Assembly: GCA_004764695.1 (NCBI GenBank)
Contig: SMSO01000035.1
Span: 4,531,040 to 4,595,039, forward strand
Length of the DNA: 64,000 bases
Reading direction: 5' to 3'
Origin: Schizochytrium sp. TIO01
Lineage: Eukaryota; Sar; Bigyra; Thraustochytrida; Thraustochytriidae
Shown: positions 9,128-48,354 of the stretch, one piece after another
Position numbering within the stretch: position 1 is the stretch's first letter
How the letters are laid out: every line of letters begins with the position of its first letter
Made by a program: the position numbers and the translations under genes
The notes under the pieces: generated by a model
The model's database searches: none
Seen by the model: the letters and a program-made list of their open reading frames with translations, nothing else
Told to the model about the DNA's origin: nothing

Positions 9128-10024
9128 ATGTCGCAGTCTTTGGCAGCCTCAGAGGATACCAAAATAGTTGATGGCAAGAGCTATACAATCAACCAAAGCA
9201 TGCTCAGAGCAAGCACTATGGAGCCTAAGGGCAATTCCACACAGGCTCTACTGGCAGCCTCATGGGCCGCAGGAATGGTTTTTTCACCAAAGGTACGCTC
9301 CCTCACTGGGGTTGCAGCATTGGGATCAGTCACTGCAGTAGGACTTTTGTACGTTGCAATGCGATCCTCAAAAACGATCAGTGCCTCTGTGACCTCGAGA
9401 ATTTTGCCCCCGATCTTGGAGGATCTTGACAACGAGGTTGGTGAAGTCAGGACCGAGTTGCTGAAAGATATGAAGGGCAAGGTATTGGATTTTGGAGCTG
9501 GAGATGGACATTACCTCCGCTACGTTGCTAAGCGTAAGGATCAGGTGGAGTCTGTGACCTGCCTTGAGCCGCTCAAGGCACTCCATCCATCAATTAAGCA
9601 ACGGGCTGCAGACCTTGACCTTTCCAAGGTTGAGATCTATGGAGGGTTTTCTTCTGACCTGCTGAAAGAACGTGGTCCAGGCCAGTATGACTTTGTCATT
9701 ATTGGCAATGTTCTCTGTGAGGTTCCCGATCAAGATGCTGTGGTCAACGACATCTATGAACTTCTTCGCCCGGGCGGAAAAGTTTTCTATATCGAGCACG
9801 TTGCCAGCCACGAAGGAACGTTCAACAATAAATTGCAGCGGTTCATCAATCCCTTGTGGAAGGTAATCAGTGGTGGCTGCAACTGCGATCGACACAGCAT
9901 GCGTGCTCTCAAGGCGGTGCCCTGGAAAATGTACGAATGGGAGCTGCAAATGAGTTTCCCCTTGACCGAGCGTATGGTGATGGGACTTGCTATCAAGCCT
10001 ACAGGAACCGCGGAAGACCATTAG
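9128..10024 (+). CDS. TMT1/METTL7-like membrane-anchored SAM methyltransferase, copy A
   Basis: Class I S-adenosylmethionine-dependent methyltransferase of 298 residues. A hydrophobic segment around residues 40-80 suggests a membrane anchor. Motif I VLDFGAGDGHY begins near residue 119. The post-core pattern NVLCEVPDQ, LLRPGGKVFYIEHVASHEGT, then NPLWKVISGGCNCDRHS, matches the METTL7/TMT1 family, whose animal members methylate thiols at the ER and lipid droplets. The substrate here is unknown. The ATG lies in a good AAG-ATG context, and the N-terminus aligns with copy B from the DGKSYT motif onward. A close paralogue lies 2 kb downstream in the same orientation, a tandem duplication. A family match is likely; thiol-methylating activity is only inferred. 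Confidence 0.85.
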   Translation: MSQSLAASEDTKIVDGKSYTINQSMLRASTMEPKGNSTQALLAASWAAGMVFSPKVRSLTGVAALGSVTAVGLLYVAMRSSKTISASVTSRILPPILEDLDNEVGEVRTELLKDMKGKVLDFGAGDGHYLRYVAKRKDQVESVTCLEPLKALHPSIKQRAADLDLSKVEIYGGFSSDLLKERGPGQYDFVIIGNVLCEVPDQDAVVNDIYELLRPGGKVFYIEHVASHEGTFNNKLQRFINPLWKVISGGCNCDRHSMRALKAVPWKMYEWELQMSFPLTERMVMGLAIKPTGTAEDH

Positions 10025-12072
10025 GCTTGGTCGCCGCTTCTTGGTCGTAAGCGTTCATATTTTCATGAGTGTTTGAGCAAGCATTCATCTGAAACGAAAG
10101 AAACGCTTCGACCAACACAATTAGTCTGCTAGTGTACTCAAGCTGTGCACCATCTCGCTAAACACCATACAAGCTTTAAAACCCCTTCATCATGACTACC
10201 ATGTCTTTTTCTTCTTCTATGATCCTAATTATTAAAATTCGTGTTGGTGCATTGGATCGTATCCAAGTTTGTGCTCACGGACAATGAGTGCTTGATTGTT
10301 TTAGCTTGATTGTTTTGGCCCAACCAGCTCCAAGAGTTTCATTCACTACCTCTAACTACTAAGAGCGGATCATCTATGCGCTGCGGAGACCTCCCAACCT
10401 CCTTCCGTGCGGCTCACAAGTACATCTGTGCGGTGCTAGTCCTTATCTGCGCGTATCTCGCACTGCTCTCCCGCACCCCACACTTGCGTGCAGCGATGCG
10501 ATCGTAGTTGGGACCAGTGCATGTGCCATTGCGCGCTGCAGGCTCGTAAAAGCCCGTAATCCTTTGTGTGTACTCCGTCGCCTCCAAGATACTCGGCTCT
10601 TCGGCGTTGACAACGCTGACGCTGACCGGGAGGCTGGCTGCCTCGTAATAGGCAGCGACCTCCAGCTTTCAGATTGTGCGTCGCGAGCTTGCGCCGGGAG
10701 TAATCTGAGCTGCACATGTCGAGCCAGCTGCCAAGAACAAACGCCCTGATGTCGTGGTGCATTGATTGCTCTGCCGCCACTGGTATGATCATGTGCCGAT
10801 GAGCCGCATCGCTTATGGACCTATCTGTCTGTCCGTGCCAATCTGTCTACGCCTATCATCCGCATTTGCGAGTAAAGACGCCTTCTCAGTCCATGTGAAA
10901 GGAGACACGAAATGGTTGCGATGAGTACTCGGAATCAGAGGGCTTCGGGAGGTGGGCAGAGTACCGCCGCGACGAGTGCATTTCGCTGGTTTGCAGAGGA
11001 GTCTTCGCGAGGAACTGCGAAGCTTCCTTCGCTACGGAGTGAACGCGGCGACGAAAGTAGCAAAGGCAGCGAAAGGAGCCGAAGTAGTGAAAGAAAGTAC
11101 TCGCTTCCTTGCGGCCGTGGGTGGTCAGCGAGAAGGGTCTGAAGACTCGCTTTCGATTTCACAGCGGCGCCACAGGCTTTCGCAGGCGAGGAGGAGGCCA
11201 CTTGACTGCTGTGCGAGTCAGCTCGTTGAGAACGACGCGGATGGGTCTGTCGGGAAGAGAGAAACTTGAAGGGACCAAATCATGTTGACTCATCCTTTGC
11301 AATATCGTCATCGTTACCCTCGTGAAAGGAAGGTAAACTGTGCTGCTTCAGTTATGGTACGGATACCGCGTCGCTTTTGAGCAGCCCCGACTACGAGTGG
11401 ATGATGCACGGCACAGATTGTCAGAGGTTCTAGCATCAAGTTCTACGCAACTTGAGTCAACTTGACTCTTGGACGTTCAAGTTGGAGGGCTTTGCGAAGA
11501 CTCCATTGCCTTCAAGATTGCGAGAACTGCTGCAAAATAAAGTGCTCCAGAGAACACAAAAAGGAAGGGAACGAAAAGTTCTTAGTGAATGAAATGTAGA
11601 CCGACGCAACGCAACTTAGGAGGTCTAAAATAAACTGTCTCTGATTAACCATTATTCTCTTTTTTTAAAAAATATTTTTTAAAGAAGAAGAAGAAGAAGA
11701 AGAAGAAAGAATCAATGTTTTACTGGGCATTAGTACTACCTAGGAAGTAACAAGGGTCCGGGTACCTCGGTTCGGAAAGGTTCGTCATAATGGCTGTACT
11801 AGGTAGTATCTTCCTTCCCAATCAGATTCCCAAGATACATATTTGGAGTATCCTAAGTGAGCAATCACCAAATGGCCCGCTCCACTCGGTGCTAAGAAGG
11901 TTCGAGCGATAAAAGGATTTGGCTGTTGTTACTTGGCTGGTATCGCTGCTGGAGAGCTATCAAGCACAAAACAGACAAGCATACTTGTAAAGAGTGGTTC
12001 TTGGTGCGTTGGTTCCGAGTCGACTCGACAGGGGCTGCTGTAGGTGCCAGCATAAGAAACCCTTCAAAGAAA
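10025..12072. other. Spacer between tandem methyltransferase genes
   Basis: About 2 kb without a recognisable gene. The middle part (about 10,360-11,270) is GC-rich and has several overlapping short frames on both strands, with basic, low-complexity translations that look like chance. An (AAG)n run lies at 11,682-11,708 just after an A/T-rich stretch. An ATG at 11,926 is in frame with copy B, but the intervening 49 codons have no counterpart in copy A. Confidence 0.55.
11682..11708. repeat. (AAG)n microsatellite
   Basis: Roughly eight tandem AAG triplets follow an A/T homopolymer-rich stretch upstream of methyltransferase copy B. Confidence 0.9.
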
Positions 12073-12960
12073 ATGTCTGAGAAACCCTTAACAGGAGAAA
12101 CGAAGCTTGTTGATGGCAAAAGCTACACGGTAAATCAAGCCATGCTGAGAAGTAGCCATGAAACACGCAGCCCAATTGCCAAAGCTGCAAAGGTGCTGCT
12201 CGCAGCATCTTGGGCTGCAGGTATGATCTTATCACCCAAAGTACGCTCTTTAAGTGGAGCTACAACTTTAGCATCTGCAACAGCTATTGGTATCTTGTAT
12301 ATTGCGATGAGCTCTTCAAAGACCATCAGTGCTTCTGTGACGTCCAAACTCCTGCCTGCACTTCTGCAGGATCTTGATAACGAGATGGGTGAAATCAGGA
12401 CGGAATTGCTTAAAGATATGAAGGGCAAAGTTCTTGACTTCGGAGCTGGAGACGGTCACTATTTAGCTTATATTGCGAAATACAAGGACCAGGTAGAATC
12501 GGTCACCAGCCTTGAACCTCTACAGGCACTCCATCCATTGATTGAGAAACGTGCTGCAAAGCTCGACCTTCCTGAGATGGAAATCTATGGTAAATTTTCC
12601 TCAGATTTGCTGCGTGAACGCGGTCCTAATCAGTATGATTTCATCATTCTTGGTAACGTTCTTTGCGAAGTTCCAGATCAAAGCGCCGTCCTTCAAGATA
12701 TCTACGAACTACTCCGCCCTGGGGGCAAAATTTTCTACATGGAGCACGTGGCTAGCCACGAGGGTACTCTTACCAATAAACTTCAACGTCTTATCAATCC
12801 TTTGTGGAAGGTCATAAGTGGAGGCTGCAATTGCAATCGCCATAGCTTGCGCTCTCTTGAAGCGATGCCGTGGAAAATGCACGAATGGGAACTGAGGATG
12901 AGCTTTCCACTGATCGAGCGCATGGTGATGGGAATTGCCATCAAATCTACGAACGTTTAG
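12073..12960 (+). CDS. TMT1/METTL7-like membrane-anchored SAM methyltransferase, copy B
   Basis: Paralogue of the gene at 9128, 295 residues, nearly collinear and by eye about three-quarters identical from the anchor segment onward. It keeps motif I (VLDFGAGDGHY), NVLCEVPDQ, the LLRPGGK / EHVASHEGT block and the SGGCNCNRHS block, so both copies look functional. The most variable part is the first ~40 residues before the hydrophobic anchor. The ATG at 12,073 is chosen because the protein from there matches copy A (MS..TKLVDGKSYT); an ATG at 11,926 would add 49 unrelated residues. Silent differences are abundant, with A/T-ending codons more frequent here than in copy A, so the duplication is not very recent. 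The gene converges with the pentaspan gene. Confidence 0.85.
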   Translation: MSEKPLTGETKLVDGKSYTVNQAMLRSSHETRSPIAKAAKVLLAASWAAGMILSPKVRSLSGATTLASATAIGILYIAMSSSKTISASVTSKLLPALLQDLDNEMGEIRTELLKDMKGKVLDFGAGDGHYLAYIAKYKDQVESVTSLEPLQALHPLIEKRAAKLDLPEMEIYGKFSSDLLRERGPNQYDFIILGNVLCEVPDQSAVLQDIYELLRPGGKIFYMEHVASHEGTLTNKLQRLINPLWKVISGGCNCNRHSLRSLEAMPWKMHEWELRMSFPLIERMVMGIAIKSTNV

Positions 12961-13264: not shown

Positions 13265-16200
13265 TCAATACAAATGGACGGTGTTGTTGTCTGAACTCAG
13301 GGAGCGCAAAACCGTACGCAGCACTATTGAGGAATCCTCCAATGGGATGGGTGATGATAGCGTGCTAGGTCCTGGATAAGCGTCTACACGAAAGGAGCCA
13401 GGTGGAGCTTTGTTAGTTGCGCACACATTAGAAGATGCTTTAAAGGACTCAAGTCCAACCGTTCTCAGTTGAGGCCTTGGGCGATATTGGTCAAGGCATA
13501 GTAGAGCCGGAGCGAGAGCAATGAGTATACCGAGCGCAAATGTAGTCCAGGGCACTACAAGCCAAAATATTGCGTCTGTTAAATCACAGCACAGGGGTTC
13601 TTTGATAGTTTTGAACATGGAAGAAAAGGCTTGACAGTCAAAGGTGTCCTTCATTTCAGCAATGGCGTGCTGAGTGGCTGTAAGAACTTCATCTAGAAGT
13701 TGATCAGCAGGCATGTCAAACTCGATTCCCATCAACGTTGTTTGATTATTGCCCAAGTATGGTAAAATCGCATCCTCCAAGAGACTGGTGATTGCACCTT
13801 CCAAGCTATTCCATAGCTGTGCAATTGGTTCTTGGCGCAGCAACCTACTATCATTGATATCCTCAGATGTAATGTTCATGTTTGCAAAGCTTGACCCCAT
13901 GCATGGTACCAGTACGGAACGTAGTAACTGGTCAAAATCAAAGTCTAGAGTTTGCCCTGTTTCACTGAGTTGCCAAGAACATACTAAACTGTTGTCTTCC
14001 TTCTGAGTGATATTCATCCCTAGTTGTAGACAAATCATTGGCTCAATATGTTTGACAGACAATTCAAGCATAGGTTCAACAAAAGTACAGAAATCACTCA
14101 TGACGAGCAATGCAGGGATGCCAACTGCTGCTACACCGAGCATAATTGGGGCGATGAGACAACCCAAAGTTATGAACGGCACAGTCATACGCTGTCCCAT
14201 AGCAGAGCAACCTAGAGCCAGGCCTGCAAAACTGACAAGAATTATGGGAAGAACATACAGTCCTTTATAAATCTGTTCGAAGCTTGGGTAGCCGTTTCGA
14301 AGAGACTTGGTGTTAAGCATCTCAATAGTATTCACGAGGCATTCATCCATAAGGCAAATCGAATTGTCTTCATAAAAGGTCAATATGTCTCCTGTTCTTC
14401 CATCCATTATGCCTTGTACTCCCATGAGTAAATTTTCACTAGCATGTGCTGCAAATTTGTCAAACATGGTTACATTTGTCCAACCTCGAGGAATATTGAA
14501 TAACTGACTTGCAATATTTAACAAGTAAAACAAGGCTCCTCGTGAATATGTTTGAGCGCTGTTGTCGCCTTGTAGCGCGACTTCGAGAGCTCCGAGCAGA
14601 GCACTTGAGTTAGTAATTAAGGATCCAAATATAGCTGTGCTTAGCTGCCTTGATAAGCGTTGATTCTCGTTTTGCTCTTTATTAGAAGCGTCGAGCACCT
14701 TATGTTTTGACTTCGACGAAGGTTGAATAATACCTTTTGTAATACCTCCGATACTCTCGTCATTGTTTTCAGCTGGCACAGTTGTGGGGAACTCCTCTGC
14801 TAGTGTTTGAGCAAGCTTCGCAGCAGTCTCGCTTACTTCACGGTACATGTTTGGGTTGTCTCCGAATGCGAGCCCAAGCTTTTGTACTAATGCGTGCGCC
14901 TGTTGAATGTCATTCATTACTGCCTCTCTTGCAGCAAGAGCAGCAGTGTAACGATTGTAGAGGCTCATTGATGTTTGCTCTGGGTGATTGAGCATGCCGA
15001 GGAGTAATTCCGTTCCATTTGGTTGCCCAGATTCAAAATCTGGTATCCCTGACAAAATACCTTGCACATTTCTTTCTTTGAACGAATTGTATTTTGTGAC
15101 TGCTATATGCGCCTTTTGTACACACCAATTAAGATTTGAATGATTGCAAACACTAGCAGATGCTGAACTGTTTGATGAAAGGCAAATGTCAATAGCATTG
15201 GAAACTTTTTGGAGCTTCTCAATCATATCCGACCAAAACTAATATCATCATGGTTGCCATGCCGTGTGGTATTCCAGGTCACAGATGTTTTTTCGCGAGG
15301 CTTTGACCACTCTTGCCTAGGAGTGGACAGCTCTTGTTTTGATGTTACAAACCCTGAAAGCATGGTTTCTAAGCTTAGAAGGTGCTGTCCAATCCCTTGA
15401 ATTTTATGAAGCAACGTTAATAAAAGATGCATGCTAATCTTCCCAGAAGATCCCGTGTTGTCCATCTCTACGTCCAAGTCTTCTTGTGAGCAAGACTGTG
15501 ATATCTCTTTCCACTTGAGACCATCATCAAACAATTTTATTGTGGGCCTAGCTTCGTGTAGTCGCCCCATATTGTGGAGAGCCCAGTCTATGAAATCTGC
15601 ACTATTCTCAAGGTAATCTCGACTGTAGGAGAAGCTGTATTGGTGTTGCGACTGAATGGGTTGGATGCTCGCAATTTCCCGATTGTACTCTACCGTAGTC
15701 GGTTCAAACCCTAAGTAGTGGCGGATTTGGCGTCTCAAAGACCGCATCGAGGCCCTGTCTACCTTTTTCAGCATCTTAATACGTTGTAGGGAGGTTGTCA
15801 GCGCTAATGTGCTACCTTTTCCACTCCACATCAGTTTCTCTGGCAAGGTAGTAACATTCTCAGGCGGAGAAAGAGATGCCATTAAACTATGTTGGTGTTG
15901 GATGAAATCTGAAATGCTGATTGGAGGGTGTATCTTAAATTGGTCATCAAGCATTTCTAGATACCCTAGCACGCGGGTTGTCATGTTAGCATCAGCAATA
16001 CTCAGGAGCTGGTCCATGCAATGAAAAGCATGACTGACCTCCCAAAGCTCAAAGCTTTCGTCTGAAGAATCTATAGTTGCTTTGAGAGAACGGCGGCCTC
16101 CAACCGTAACAAGAGCCACCCGTAAAATTTCTGGCATTGACTCAAATACTTCTGCTGTGCCACTGGGAAATACCAAGACCAGATTTTTCTGTGCTTCGAT

Positions 16201-16995
16201 AAATCTTTGAAAATCGCCACGATCGCCAAGTGTGACCATAGTGAGGAAGAGGACGATAAAGACACCAATGATGATGAAACCAGAAAGATACGCCACAAAG
16301 CTACACTGCGTCATGCCAAGCTCTGTTAGCAACACATGTACAGCTCCAGCTTCAGACTTGATTTCCTGTTTGCCAATCTTTTCTAATTTGGCATCTGAAT
16401 TAGTTGTGCGATGTTCGGTGTCATCAAAGCGTGACTTTCTACCTGAACACACGCGTCTGTGAAAGCACTGATGGTATACATACACGACAAGGAAGAATAT
16501 GCACATAATAGCAACCCCGATAAAAAGCGCTGCGTAAATTGCGTAAGATTGTGCAATCCTTCCCCAAATCGTGTCATCATCATTTGTAATGTAGATAAAG
16601 CTCCAATCAACGGAGTCATCTTCACTTGCTGCGCCCAGTAAATCTAAGAAAGGTTCGATGCAAATATATGAAGAAGTGGAAGAATCATTCTTCATGGAGG
16701 CTATATCTAATGTGGAGTCTTGTAGTTCCTTCGCAAAGAAGATGTCCAGCGATTCAGCAAGTTTTTGGTTACACGGTATTATAATTCTTTCAGCATGTGA
16801 CCAGTTTCGGTCAATATAGCTTATGGATGCATCAACACGTGGCAGCTTTTGAATAATTCCAGGTACAGCACAGCTTCCTCCTGCTGCATCATCGCTCATG
16901 GTGGAAGCTCGGGCAAACGATAGCGATTTGCTGCTCGATAGTTCTTCAAAAGATATGCGTTCATGAGTTTGTTCGGTATGGAGACCCTCAATCAT
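13265..16995 (-). CDS. Pentaspan (prominin-like) membrane protein, two overlapping frames
   Basis: Two consecutive minus-strand frames overlap by ATGA at 15,223-15,226: 590 codons (16,995-15,223), then 653 codons (15,226-13,265). Together they give five hydrophobic helices: two in the first part (residues ~151-175 and 232-255, the first followed by a Cys-containing cytosolic loop), two close together in the second part (~321-343, 350-376), and one near its end (~552-577) before a short polar tail. Large Cys-containing loops lie between helices 2-3 and 4-5. This order matches prominins, which mark membrane protrusions and cilia in animals, though the loop lengths differ and no prominin signature was verified. 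A 110-base GTAACA...TTAG intron (15,239-15,348) would join the frames in phase. Two separate proteins or a frameshift are alternatives. No clear signal peptide is visible at the chosen ATG. Confidence 0.6.
15239..15348 (-). other. Candidate phase-0 intron in pentaspan gene
   Basis: On the minus strand a GT donor (TTT|GTAACA at 15,348-15,347) and an AG acceptor (ATTAG|TTTTGG ending at 15,239) bound 110 bases. Removing them joins the upstream codon TTT to TTT-TGG-TCG-GAT-ATG and continues into the second frame. The removed translation is Ser/Thr/Lys-rich, unlike the flanking helical sequence. A 44-base alternative starts at GTGACC with the same acceptor. Confidence 0.45.
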
Positions 16996-17550
16996 CTATC
17001 TTAACGGCTTCAAGTTTATCTGGGGCCATGGCCTCGGGCTCTATGATTGGGACTTGACCAAATTAATGTCCCATAACTTTATTATTTAAAAAAAAAAAAA
17101 GGAAGGAAAAATTAATTAAAAATCACTGACATTTTTGTTGTTGGTTTTCTTCAAAGTTAGCAGTAACATCAGTTCGAGGCGGACCAGTCTCGTTGTTCAG
17201 AACCAAAATTTGAAAAATCAAGTACACTGCTAGCAGCGAGGTTTTGAAGGACTCGCAACTATATTGAACTCAGTCGCTTTATTAGAAAATACAACCAGAA
17301 GAAGGAAACAAAAAGTATAAAGAGCGATTTTAGTCCAAATAATTCAGGATACGGGATAATGACACTAGGGACCTAGCTCTTGTATCACAGAATGCCGATA
17401 TATGCTTATCATTGTCCCAAATGATTTAAAAAAAAACACGAAAGTACAGGTTTATCTGCATATGGGTCGTACCAGATAGAGTTAGTGCAAAAAGTGAATA
17501 TGAAATAAAGCATATTTAGCAAGACAAGAACTAGGGCCAGTGAATTCACT
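16996..17550. other. Intergenic between pentaspan and TIR/TPR genes
   Basis: A/T-rich spacer of about 550 bases containing a poly-A run near 17,088-17,101. No coding frame is supported. It should contain the pentaspan promoter and the 3' end of the TIR/TPR gene. Confidence 0.55.
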
Positions 17551-19131
17551 TCAAGACTCGTAAGATGATATTGCTTTTGCCATGTCTTCCTGTACTCTTT
17601 TCGTAGTAACATGGTCTGGTCCAAGAGAATGAAGACAAATATCCTCTGCTTGATGGTACACCTCAATGGCTCGCTCAAAGTCTCCTTGTTTCATGTATGT
17701 GCTTGCTAGTCCTAACAACGTGAGTGCCACAGCTGGGTCTCGGGAACCAAAAGCAGTTTCTTGATCACGCAAAGCTCGATGGTAGAATGTGAGTGCCATG
17801 TCAAAACGTTCTTGTTTGGTATAAACACATGCCATTCTTCTCAAAGTACGATGAACTTCTGGGTTACCAGGCCCTAAGTTATCCAATGCAATTGACAGAG
17901 CCTCTTCATAGGATAAGAGTGCTTGTCTAAATTTGCCTTGGCTTTCGAAAACAACGCCAGTTTCATATGAAGTCATGGCAAGCAAAGGATTGTTGGGGTC
18001 TAGAATCTCACGTTGGATCTCATGAGCTTCTTGAAAAAAACCTAATGCTTCTCGCGTTTCACCCTTACGGTGAAGGAGGAAGGCAGCAGCAGCGAGAGTA
18101 CCAGAAAGCTGCAAGTTATCGTGTCCTTCTCGAGCTTCGTGAACAGCTGGAAGAGTGTATGGGAGATACCAATGACCAACTAGTTCTTCAAGCATTGCAT
18201 CAAGGTCCTCGACATTAGTGTCCAGAGTTCTAGCAATAGCGGCACTCAGAATATGAGAATCATAGGGATCAGAGCACTGCGCAGTGAACGTATGCACGAC
18301 GTTACGTAACACAGCAATTATGTTTCCTGCGTTCTGTCGAAGTTGCGATGCATAGGCCTCTTTTTGACCTTGAGCAAAAAGAGCTGGGGCTGCGAGCCCA
18401 AAACGAAGAAATCCCCAAATTTCCCAAATACACCAAAGTCGATCCAGCGGGGCAGGCACATCCCACCTGTCGATAAAGATCACGTGGGACTCAAAACTAG
18501 AAATAATTTCATGGAGTTCTTCTGTGAGTGATGTTTCGTACACGTCGCTACCTCGATCTGTTCTGAGTAGAACTTGATTTGCGCAAAACACATCAAGCCA
18601 TACAAAACTCTCGCTTGGATCAGTATCTGCAAAAAACTCCCCAAGTGCCTCGATGAGATCAGAAAATCTTGATTGATGAGCGTGGCATACAAAAACACCT
18701 TGGTGTGCATCCCCAATATATTGATCATTGAGGAAGTTAAGGTAAATGTGAGGCATCCCTTCCTGACATTCTGCTGGAAGCACCATATGAGCTAGTAAGT
18801 CTGCTGTAGACCACTCCTGGCGACTTTTCTCGTTTGCATTCTCTCCAGGTACAAAAATCACATCGTATTCATCGTCACCAAATATCGCTAGGCCGCGCAT
18901 GGCTACTACTTCGTCATTTTCATCATCACTGTTCTCTACTGGACCAACAAGTCGAATAGTTGAACCTGTTGGAACCTTTTCATGTAAATCTTCGGTTGTC
19001 ACATACAACTGGACATCCTCTGCAAGCTCGTTTTCCAAAAAAGCCTGATAGATACCCTCCAAGCCGCGTAAGCTCAGGGAGCGATGATCCAGCAAGGGCT
19101 CTGATTCTGTACCCTCCTCCTGATCACTCAT
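17551..19131 (-). CDS. TIR-like domain plus TPR (kinesin-light-chain-type) repeat protein
   Basis: A 526-residue protein starting at the ATG at 19,131; a longer frame begins only at a TTG. After an acidic N-terminus, residues ~145-245 resemble a TIR-type fold: a first strand VFVCHAHQ, then FVWLDVFCANQ, then SHVIFIDRWDVPAPLDRLWCIWEIW. The WCxWE element (233-237) places a Glu where plant and animal TIR NADases have their catalytic Glu. Residues ~341-510 hold about four ~42-residue TPRs of the kinesin-light-chain type, with A..L...G.F..AL..Y..A spacing and NP/DP turns. Automated annotation often labels such proteins kinesin light chain, but there is no KLC heptad N-terminus. A role in signalling or immunity is an inference, and NADase activity is untested. 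No neighbour suggests a shared operon-like unit. Confidence 0.7.
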   Translation of the reverse strand: MSDQEEGTESEPLLDHRSLSLRGLEGIYQAFLENELAEDVQLYVTTEDLHEKVPTGSTIRLVGPVENSDDENDEVVAMRGLAIFGDDEYDVIFVPGENANEKSRQEWSTADLLAHMVLPAECQEGMPHIYLNFLNDQYIGDAHQGVFVCHAHQSRFSDLIEALGEFFADTDPSESFVWLDVFCANQVLLRTDRGSDVYETSLTEELHEIISSFESHVIFIDRWDVPAPLDRLWCIWEIWGFLRFGLAAPALFAQGQKEAYASQLRQNAGNIIAVLRNVVHTFTAQCSDPYDSHILSAAIARTLDTNVEDLDAMLEELVGHWYLPYTLPAVHEAREGHDNLQLSGTLAAAAFLLHRKGETREALGFFQEAHEIQREILDPNNPLLAMTSYETGVVFESQGKFRQALLSYEEALSIALDNLGPGNPEVHRTLRRMACVYTKQERFDMALTFYHRALRDQETAFGSRDPAVALTLLGLASTYMKQGDFERAIEVYHQAEDICLHSLGPDHVTTKRVQEDMAKAISSYES

Positions 19132-19646
19132 GGACTTGTTGCCCTTGCTTAAGTTGCAAGCTATATTAGCTCTACTAGATAGAGCTGATCTCGTGCCACG
19201 ATACTCCACGCAGTTTAGCTTTCGTTGCAGCAACGATCAAAGAGCACTGTTAAATGATGTTTTTGTGAAATGTTGTGATTGGTATATGATGTTGTGCACA
19301 AGTGGCATGCTGCTTCAGACCTGCGCTGATTTTGACTCGCTTAATATTATCTAGCAAGCAGCATATATTCGAAGTTCGAGGAGGGGTCTTGCCTGAAATT
19401 TGTAGGACGCTAGCAGCAGTCAGCCAGCTCCAACCTTCGAATTGAAGACCTGAGGAAACAAGAAGGAGGTTTCTCTGTACGCGCTGCGATCGCTGACGTA
19501 CTTCAAGGATGACTCAAAGAATCTGGTTACCACCTACCACTAGTATTAGCTAATGAGTTATTTATTACTACTACTACTAAACTACTACTAGTAACTTCAA
19601 TATTATCATAAATAGTCACAACTTAGTCACATAGATTAGCATTATA

Positions 19647-19700
19647 TAGTAGTAGTAGTAGTAGTAATAATAATAATAATAGTAGTAGTAATAATAATAG
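19647..19700. repeat. (TAG/TAA)n microsatellite
   Basis: Interleaved TAG and TAA triplets run for about 54 bases, preceded at 19,560-19,595 by a related (TAC)n stretch with ACT triplets. Confidence 0.9.
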
Positions 19701-21039
19701 TGTTGTTTTTTGATCAGTAATACCTTCAGGGTCAAAGATTCCAATCGTGATACGAAAAAATCATGTATCTGAACATAGATATGATTTGGGCGAAGGAATC
19801 ATTTTGAACCTATGTCGTAATTCTCTATTCTTTCTCTCAACTACTGTGCGATAATATGTTGAAATTCTTGTGATAGTATTGTAGAAGGGTATAGAGACAG
19901 TTCTACTTGTACTACTTTCATCAAGCGGCCTTACTGTATGTGGAGAGAAAAACTGTAACAAAATAGTACTGGGCCTAAAGGAGTGCACTATGTGCTATAC
20001 AGAATATGGATGCAACAAAGGTGTTCCAATAAGCTTTGGGGTGACGACAGTAAGCACTTCAATCGAGCGTTCATTAGTGAACCACAAGATATTGAAATCA
20101 CTCTTGAGCTTTTCTAGATCCGGAAGTCCTCACAATGAGCTTCACATTAAGGTTTGACATGATCTTATCATCCTTTAGAAGGATTATCTGCATTCTGTAA
20201 TATCTTGACCTAATTTTCATTTTCTTTACTTCTCCTTCCTCTTCTTCTCTGCGTTGTATTGCATTAAAGATAAAAGCCATATACGGGTTCTCTGCGTGCG
20301 CTTCAGTTACGAACTTTTTAAAACGAGGTATCCAGGTACGAGGCAGCGCAAATGGAGATCAACAACTCTCTTTGAGGATGTGAACGAAAACTTATTGATT
20401 CGGTATTTCTGTACTTTTAGATAGCAGCTAGCGCTCATTTACACTGCGTTATTTAGACCAAGCTTGATGAAGACCAAGCCTGCTTTGTGAAGCAACACTG
20501 AATCGTATATTTCTCCTTTTGTGTTTTCCCCTTTCCTTTCTGTTGGAGATGAAACTTGAACAAAACATAGAGAAACCAGTAACTGTAGAGTCCTGAATGA
20601 CTTGAATCTTGAGGCATAAAAAGGTAAGACTATCTTTAGAAGATAAGAGTACTAAATATAATGCTCATTCGAAATGACAACCTCTTAAGCCTCTCATAGT
20701 TTCATTATTTTCTAACTCTAGAGGTATAGGCTTAGATGCTTCATGGTCACGGGGTTTGCGATCTTATGAAGCTGCCTAATATATCTTGATAATGAGTTGA
20801 AGTACAAGTTGGTTTCCGTAATTCCGAAGGCTTCCATGAGAATGTTACGCTCTTCCGAGTCTCTTCCAAGTCACAAGTTTTTAAATTCACATTCCTAATT
20901 TGACTTTTGCTACTTTGCTGAAACTGTAGACTTTAAAATATTTCTTACTATTAAAAAGTTTATACCGAAATTGTTTTTAGAGAGATTTAAAAGGCTAATC
21001 AGGTCATATCAGTAACAAGTTACGTCAGCTTTAAAACGC

Positions 21040-46671: not shown

Positions 46672-48354
46672 ATGCAGCGCGCAGCTAAGCAGGTGATGAC
46701 CAAGTGCCCGTTCATCAAGAGCGGCGCCTTGAGTGAGAAGACCATCAAGAACCAGGATGTCATGCGTGGCGCCGCAGCTCTCTGCCCGCACATGAACAAG
46801 GTCATGGCCAGTGGCCAGCCCGCCGTCGAGGCCGACGTCCTTGCCCAGCCCTGCGAGGGATGCCCCTGCAACCAGAACAAGGCTGGTGCGTGCACCCAGC
46901 ACAACGTGAACTCCGTCATCAAGAGCGCTCAGGAGCAGCAGCCCCAGCAGGAGGAGCCCGCCAAGCCCAAGGCCCAGACCCCGCGTGAGAGGTACAACGA
47001 CCTCTTTGCTGGCGAGGTCGACAAGGTCAAGCGCGAGGGTAGATACCGCGTCTTCGCTGACCTTGAGCGCAAGGCTGGCCAGTTCCCTGTGGCGACCTGC
47101 CACAACGCCAAGACCGGTGAGCCGATGACCATCACCGGCTGGTGCAGCAATGACTACCTCGCTATGGGCCAGCACCCCAAGGTTGTGGAGTCCATGGTTA
47201 AGGCAGCTCGCGAGTGTGGTACCGGCGCTGGAGGCACTCGTAACATTAGCGGCACCAACCACTACCACGTCCTGCTCGAGGAGGAGCTGGCAGCACTGCA
47301 CAACAAGGAGGCAGCACTCGTGTTCTCGAGCTGCTTTGTGGCCAACGAAACAACACTCACTACCATGTCCAAGATGCTCCCGGACTCGATCCTCCTTTCG
47401 GATCAATTCAACCACGCATCCATGATCCAGGGTATTCGCAACGGATCCTGGGAGCGTAAGATCTACCGCCACAACGATCTCGATCACCTCGAGACCCTCC
47501 TGCGTCAGCAGCCCCTCGAGCGGAACAAGGTCATTGCCTTTGAGAGTGTCAACTCCATGGAGGGAACCGTTGCCCCCATGGAAGACCTCGCCTTCCTCGC
47601 GGAGAAGTACAACGCGCTCACTTTTAACGACGAAGTCCACGCTGTTGGCATGTACGGAAAGCAGGGTGGTGGTGTAGCCCAGAGAGACAATGTCGAGGAC
47701 CGCATCGACATTATCTCAGGCACCCTTGGAAAGGCCTTTGGAGTTGTTGGAGGATACGTCGCTGGATCTGCATCCTTCATCGATGCCATGAGATCCGTCT
47801 GCCCTGGATTTATCTTTACCACCGCCATCCCCCCGGCGGTCGCGGCTGCGGCTCTCACTTCCATCAAGCACCTTCGTGAGTCCAACGAGGAGCGCGTGGC
47901 TATGCACAAGAACGCTCGCATGTTCCAGGCCAGACTCCGTGAGAATGGATTCCCCATGCTCCCCACCGTGTCTCATGTCACCCCGGTGCTCGTTGGAGAC
48001 TCTGTCAAGGTCAAGCAGGTCACTGACAAACTTCTTCATGAATACGGCATTTATTTGCAGCCCATCAACTACCCTACTGTTCCCCGTGGCACTGAGCGTC
48101 TCCGCATTACGCCCGCGCCCGTTCATACCCCGGAGATGATGGACCAGCTCATTTTTGCACTCAACAACATCTGGAACGAGCTTGAACTGCCCCGTTCCTA
48201 CATGCCTGTTGACTTTGATGAGCCTGCTGCCCGTGGTGAGATGGATGTTCCTCTTGAGGACTACTCCGTTGGATCTTCCTCTTGCTACGACTTTTTCCTT
48301 GAGAACCCTTCTCTTGGATCCCTCCCGGTTGAGCCTGCCTCTGCCACCGCTTAA
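46672..48354 (+). CDS. ALAS: 5-aminolevulinate synthase (Shemin pathway)
   Basis: PLP enzyme condensing glycine with succinyl-CoA to give 5-aminolevulinate, the first step of haem synthesis in mitochondria. Of its 560 residues, ~1-105 are a presequence-like region with three Cys-Pro haem-regulatory-type motifs (Cys12-Pro13 in KCPF, Cys38-Pro39 in LCPH, Cys64-Pro65 in GCPC), spaced 26 residues apart. The catalytic core starts near 107 (RYNDLF). It shows [32 protein letters not shown] and the Schiff-base Lys354 in SGTLGKAFG, then RLRITPAP. The C-terminus extends ~40 residues past the core. C/G-ending codons suggest strong expression. Feedback by haem on import or stability is known for CP motifs in animals and is inferred here. 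The presence of ALAS argues for a non-photosynthetic eukaryote. Confidence 0.96.

Follow-up and report, generated by a model that had tools for sequence, protein, structure and literature searches.

A candidate TIR-like domain joined to kinesin-light-chain-type TPRs in a diverged protein family of Schizochytrium sp. TIO01 that Pfam TIR models miss

This study examined a 64,000-nucleotide stretch of DNA from Schizochytrium sp. TIO01 (the window) and identified a gene whose product is predicted to combine an SH3-like barrel, a TIR-like domain, and an array of TPRs in a single open frame (Table 1). The gene belongs to a family in which most members keep a glutamate at the place of the catalytic glutamate of TIR NADases. 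The reading we prefer, that the protein is a TPR-controlled TIR-like effector whose substrate is likely NAD or a related nucleotide, is in our judgment evenly poised. The broader proposal, that approximately thirty genes form a Pfam-invisible family of SH3-like, TIR, and TPR enzymes and thereby a second TIR repertoire that senses through TPRs without an NTPase switch, is possible and is put forward tentatively.

Table 1. Features of the TIR-like gene, in window positions
Feature	Position	Strand	Residues	Remarks
Gene with SH3-like, TIR-like, and TPR parts, single open frame	17551..19131	minus		526 aa
SH3-like barrel (predicted)	18820..19023	minus	37-104	18/21 members aligned over the N-terminal domain
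TIR-like domain	18145..18705	minus	143-329	range taken from alignment with the best TIR rows; predicted model, fold and profile comparison
Trp178, WLD element at strand B	18598..18600	minus	178	21/21 family members
WCIWE, helix C	18421..18435	minus	233-237	Glu237 codon 18421-18423, 21/21
Four kinesin-light-chain-type TPRs	17611..18087	minus	349-507	Pfam and PDB sequence matches

The open reading frame starts with an ATG at 19131, ends with a stop at 17551, and contains no internal stops, in agreement with an earlier reading made from the letters alone (the sequence-only reading). That reading had also proposed approximately four C-terminal TPRs, and the Pfam scan recovered four TPR_10 stretches and three TPR_12 stretches (E 1.6e-30) in this part of the protein. 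All Pfam matches of the window protein were TPR models or fell within the TPR part, and a PADLOC scan of the protein returned TPR models only (best E 2.1e-5). The top PDB sequence match of the TPRs was the engineered TPR protein 9qhb (E 3.5e-28), followed by kinesin light chain 1 (7ai4, E 8.7e-24). The rank of 7ai4, directly after an engineered protein, would suit an ordinary kinesin light chain or a generic TPR adaptor without TIR function. True kinesin light chains, however, bind kinesin heavy chain through an N-terminal heptad coiled coil, whereas residues 10-345 of the window protein were predicted as a barrel (residues 10-140) and an alpha/beta domain (residues 124-345), the latter containing the most strongly conserved positions of the aligned domain. 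The protein shares its TPR type with kinesin light chain and differs in the predicted folds of its N-terminal two thirds, and we consider the kinesin light chain explanation highly improbable. The predicted SH3-like domain was a part absent from the sequence-only reading; its alignment omitted L047, L048, and L050, which were not alignable.

We used the window protein as a tblastn query against the 64.06 Mb assembly (37 contigs) and obtained 72 pieces at E ≤ 1, among which those touching the TIR-like domain marked 30 loci (weakest E 0.0024). The paralogue L048 as query added three loci, and a third query, L067, added none; the paralogue count, a check proposed in the sequence-only reading, accordingly stands at 33 loci as a lower bound. 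Twenty-one of these were aligned, 11 were fetched later, and L046 was read separately. When 28 frames were searched with the family profile A1, all 11 of the later-fetched members matched it with E-values no higher than 1.2e-9. L046 (C36:2867500-2873000) is split into two overlapping frames (1613-2200 and 2166-2705), and this split may reflect a pseudogene, an intron, or an assembly error.

In the 21-member alignment, the other 20 TIR-like domains were 15-37% identical to that of the window protein. Pairwise identity among the 18 members in which the N-terminal domain could be aligned was 15-49% (153 pairs), which indicates an old, diverged family with no recent burst. Contig C24 carries four family loci inside 18 kb. 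A recent tandem burst was rejected because these four copies did not form one clade in a FastTree analysis of the 18 members; L036a and L036b, 49% identical, were the only sister pair among them. Hypervariable recent repeats were likewise rejected, as Tandem Repeats Finder found no array over the TPRs at three places tested: it reported two short-period rows outside the TPRs in L031, none in L036, and nothing but an upstream TAG-type repeat in window 17001-19800.

Among nine full frames from the 33 loci that were scanned against Pfam, six had TPRs over the cut-offs (in L031, TPR_12 down to E 9.9e-159), L047 had sub-threshold TPR matches only, and no TPR match was obtained for L048 or L050, which belong to a second subfamily. 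NTPase models were absent among the matches listed for the nine frames (for L031, the best 25 of 40). The second subfamily (L048, L050, L062, and relatives, on C30 and C31) carries the TIR-like domain within frames that are 885 to 1404 aa long. Pfam gave no match for three of these frames, of which one is partial.

The predicted model of the TIR-like domain, built from an input of 21 sequences, had a pLDDT of 86.4 and a pTM of 0.83. It comprised the elements E23-26, H33-43, E54-56, H63-70/72-88, E92-97, H109-120, and E127-129, and placed Glu237 (E114 in model numbering) inside H109-120, that is, helix C. DSSP assigned four strands to the model, whereas the canonical TIR sheet has five parallel strands. 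In the VIA fold comparison, 48 of the 50 matches listed were TIR or TIR-bearing chains, led by RPP1 and SARM1 and including ThsB and some SPARTA rows that we take to be TIR-bearing; all matches had Z below 8 and were graded middling by VIA. Foldseek ranked plant TIRs first to eighth, with TM-scores of 0.08-0.43 and rmsd of at least 11.6 Å for the TIR matches, and returned no match at E ≤ 0.001. From rank 9 on, it listed the SIS-type proteins DiaA and GmhA.

These results revealed that, by computation, the TIR fold is the best structural match of the predicted domain. The sequence-only reading had noted a TIR-like strand pattern and had named comparison with SARM1 and plant TIRs as a check; the model and both comparisons bore the pattern out, the best matches being TIRs, and a non-TIR fold was not found. 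We regard a TIR-like fold as very probable for the modeled domain, with our confidence lowered because the Foldseek TM-scores are low.

At the sequence level, no Pfam TIR-clan profile matched any of the 21 members, the window protein included, at E up to 10, a threshold at which the HMMER filters discard most matches above approximately 0.1. The scan yielded 11 families, each from one member (best E 0.0064) and none of them TIR; DUF4062, the profile of which we take to be part of the library scanned, was not among them. Profile A1 also had no match among PDB sequences at E up to 10. The same genome nonetheless holds a large canonical TIR repertoire: the curated cut-offs were exceeded by 33 of its 34 matches to TIR_2 and by 8 of its 10 matches to TIR; among 14 control genomes, TIR_2 exceeded its cut-off in four and TIR in one. 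The canonical TIR_2 matches are spread over contigs C3 to C36, and a number of them lie in open frames of approximately 850 aa.

We compared the family with a canonical TIR profile (A4) comprising nine sequences of this genome; all of the five that were rescanned exceeded the TIR_2 cut-off, and the profile matched the PDB TIRs AbTir, Cat1, SARM1, and plant resistance proteins. Local hhalign paired FVCH with FLSH, WLD with WLD, and WCIWE with FCRAE. With 21 family sequences, the alignment had a P of 0.018 (probability 2.6%); one of 200 column shuffles reached the real score, and the reversed profile scored 11.6, below the real one. With 28 sequences (the 21 and seven of the eleven fetched later, omitting L063, L065, L068, and L069), P was 0.0012 (probability 19.7%), and none of 100 shuffles reached the real score, the best coming near it (27.2 vs 28.2). 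Pooled over both tests, which are related to each other rather than independent, the real score lay above 299 of 300 shuffles. A control with the HAW-type subset alone (nine sequences) gave a P of 0.0095. In global mode, the motif register was not reproduced, and other, out-of-register columns were aligned. The distance from the strand-A Phe to the strand-B Trp is 31 residues in both sets (F147-W178 here, F42-W73 canonical), and that from Trp to Glu is 59 residues in the window family vs 52 in the canonical set. The local alignments tie the family to TIR in the expected register, but weakly.

The low TM-scores and weak E-values of Foldseek, the position of DiaA and GmhA right after the TIRs, and a TIR sequence link of only P 0.018 to 0.0012 would be compatible with convergence, in which a different Rossmann-like or nucleotide-handling fold, such as a nucleoside-deoxyribosyltransferase-like or SIS-like one, has come to resemble TIR. 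The dominance of TIRs in the VIA matches and in the Foldseek top eight argues against such a fold, as does a motif register that matches the one in this genome's canonical TIRs and exceeds nearly all shuffles; we consider convergence quite improbable.

Trp178 and Glu237 were the only invariant positions in the 21-member alignment, and D180, W223, R231, W233, and C234 were each kept in 20 of 21 members. The sequence-only reading had numbered Glu237 correctly, and its placement of this residue where TIR NADases have their catalytic glutamate agrees with its predicted position in helix C, in register with the canonical TIRs in the local alignment. Across the 33 loci, the glutamate was kept in 30, lost in two, and ambiguous in one. 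It stands in a WCxxE element in eight of the 12 loci outside the alignment, and the frame-shifted L046 retains WCVWE. The two losses, L063 and L068, are neighbors on C30 (near 5538000 and 5545000) whose frames are stop-free over the stretch fetched; their strand-B WLD reads WLE or WIE, and their sequences make inactive copies possible. L049 has the same strand-B Asp change and keeps the glutamate. In L065/L073, a glutamate can be recognized only through a by-eye alignment of FVCELY, and W and C are lost.

The TIRs of Toll-like receptors self-associate into signaling complexes, and the WCxxE motif also occurs in those that act as scaffolds; a conserved glutamate is therefore no proof of catalysis. 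The domain might be an enzymatically inactive, TIR-like scaffold that builds signaling complexes through self-association, with Glu, Trp, and Cys in structural roles. The conservation of W178 and of the five residues listed above, almost like that of Glu237, would fit such a scaffold, and so would the absence of the glutamate from two stop-free loci. Nevertheless, a polar residue was retained in 30 of 33 loci despite identities of only 15-49% among the members compared pairwise, and the two loci that lost it are also changed at the strand-B Asp, as lost active sites might be; yet L049, with that same change, keeps its Glu. Taken together, we regard the scaffold explanation as rather unlikely.

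If the preferred reading of a TPR-controlled effector is correct, the TIR-like effector domain would sit beside its TPR array in one protein, and the TPR superhelix and the SH3-like barrel would bind a partner or ligand and govern self-assembly of the TIR-like domain. Once assembled, the domains would rely on Glu237 to cleave NAD+ or a related nucleotide or to cyclise it, and this turnover would yield a signal or NAD loss. We infer NAD as the substrate and the TPRs as the regulator; the protein may also have a role in defence or stress signaling.

Like the TIR NADases SARM1, plant RPP1/RUN1 TIR, and bacterial ThsB, which supply the best fold matches, the family has a helix-C Glu and a WLD-type strand-B element. 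Unlike them, it lacks a Pfam TIR or TIR_2 match, has four predicted strands, and carries WLDxFCANQ after strand B and a signature of its own, DxWxxPxPLxRxWCxWE (consensus). A pairing of a TIR-like region with TPRs is also suggested by PDB 9m0n (824 aa), TPR-bearing by its name, "Tetratricopeptide repeat protein"; its residues 4-102 matched the canonical profile A4 (E 0.0062), whereas the window family gave no match to it.

The sequence-only reading had called the protein NLR-like. The likeness to NLRs (TIR-NB-ARC-repeat) stands insofar as an effector domain is followed by a C-terminal repeat array. In the strict sense the term is not supported, because the TPRs directly adjoin the TIR-like domain, with no NTPase module between them, and Pfam gave no NB-ARC or NACHT match in the window protein. 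This NTPase-free layout of effector and repeats offers a comparison case for NLRs. Elsewhere in the genome, L060 (175-3402; C36:3123300-3126900) is a 1075-aa ORF whose above-cut-off match to NB-ARC (E 2.4e-7) and C-terminal TPRs make it, judged by profile matches, NLR-like in layout. The NB-ARC model also matched 13 of the 14 control genomes and exceeded its cut-off in four.

No relative was confirmed among GTDB species genomes (two scans, 29 pattern matches each), IMG/VR (four scans with 29, 81, 7, and 6 pattern matches), or plasmid and phage collections, in scans with short patterns or tblastn that reach close relatives best. Similar "FVSHAW ... WCLYE" proteins presumably occur in other protists. 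We found no description of the window family in our searches of the open-licence PMC literature.

In a 2026 preprint, DUF4062 is shown to be a TIR-like NADase family (Swarozyc, TEP1), recognized by structure and a conserved Glu (PMC13174449). The window family resembles it in having a predicted TIR-like fold and a conserved Glu fused to accessory domains, and differs in its partner domains. In a second preprint, an atlas of eukaryotic TIRs was built from Pfam STIR-clan models and reports undescribed clades (PMC13142454); like these uncharacterized clades, the window family would represent highly diverged eukaryotic TIRs without known function. In the main text of the atlas, a word search for stramenopile, TPR, kinesin, thraustochytr, labyrinth, and chromist returned nothing (PMC13142454). 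If a large family that retains the Glu escapes Pfam models of the kind from which the atlas was grown, current counts of eukaryotic TIRs may be too low. In that case, some proteins that owe their names to kinesin-light-chain-type TPRs may be signaling enzymes.

Six other ORFs of the window were scanned: one encodes a CAF1-type nuclease, two encode methyltransferases, one encodes an MTHFR-like protein, and the remaining two gave no match; no link of these six to the TIR-like gene was seen. The CAF1-type nuclease, together with a kinesin motor recognized by eye, fits a eukaryotic gene content. The methyltransferase ORFs form a tandem pair of similar sequences on the plus strand (9128-10024 and 11926-12960). 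On the minus strand, 13265-16995 holds two adjacent ORFs with a four-base overlap, hydrophobic segments, and no Pfam match, which may be one gene and which we take to be prominin-like from their appearance. By eye, an ORF at 46672-48354 on the plus strand resembles 5-aminolevulinate synthase.
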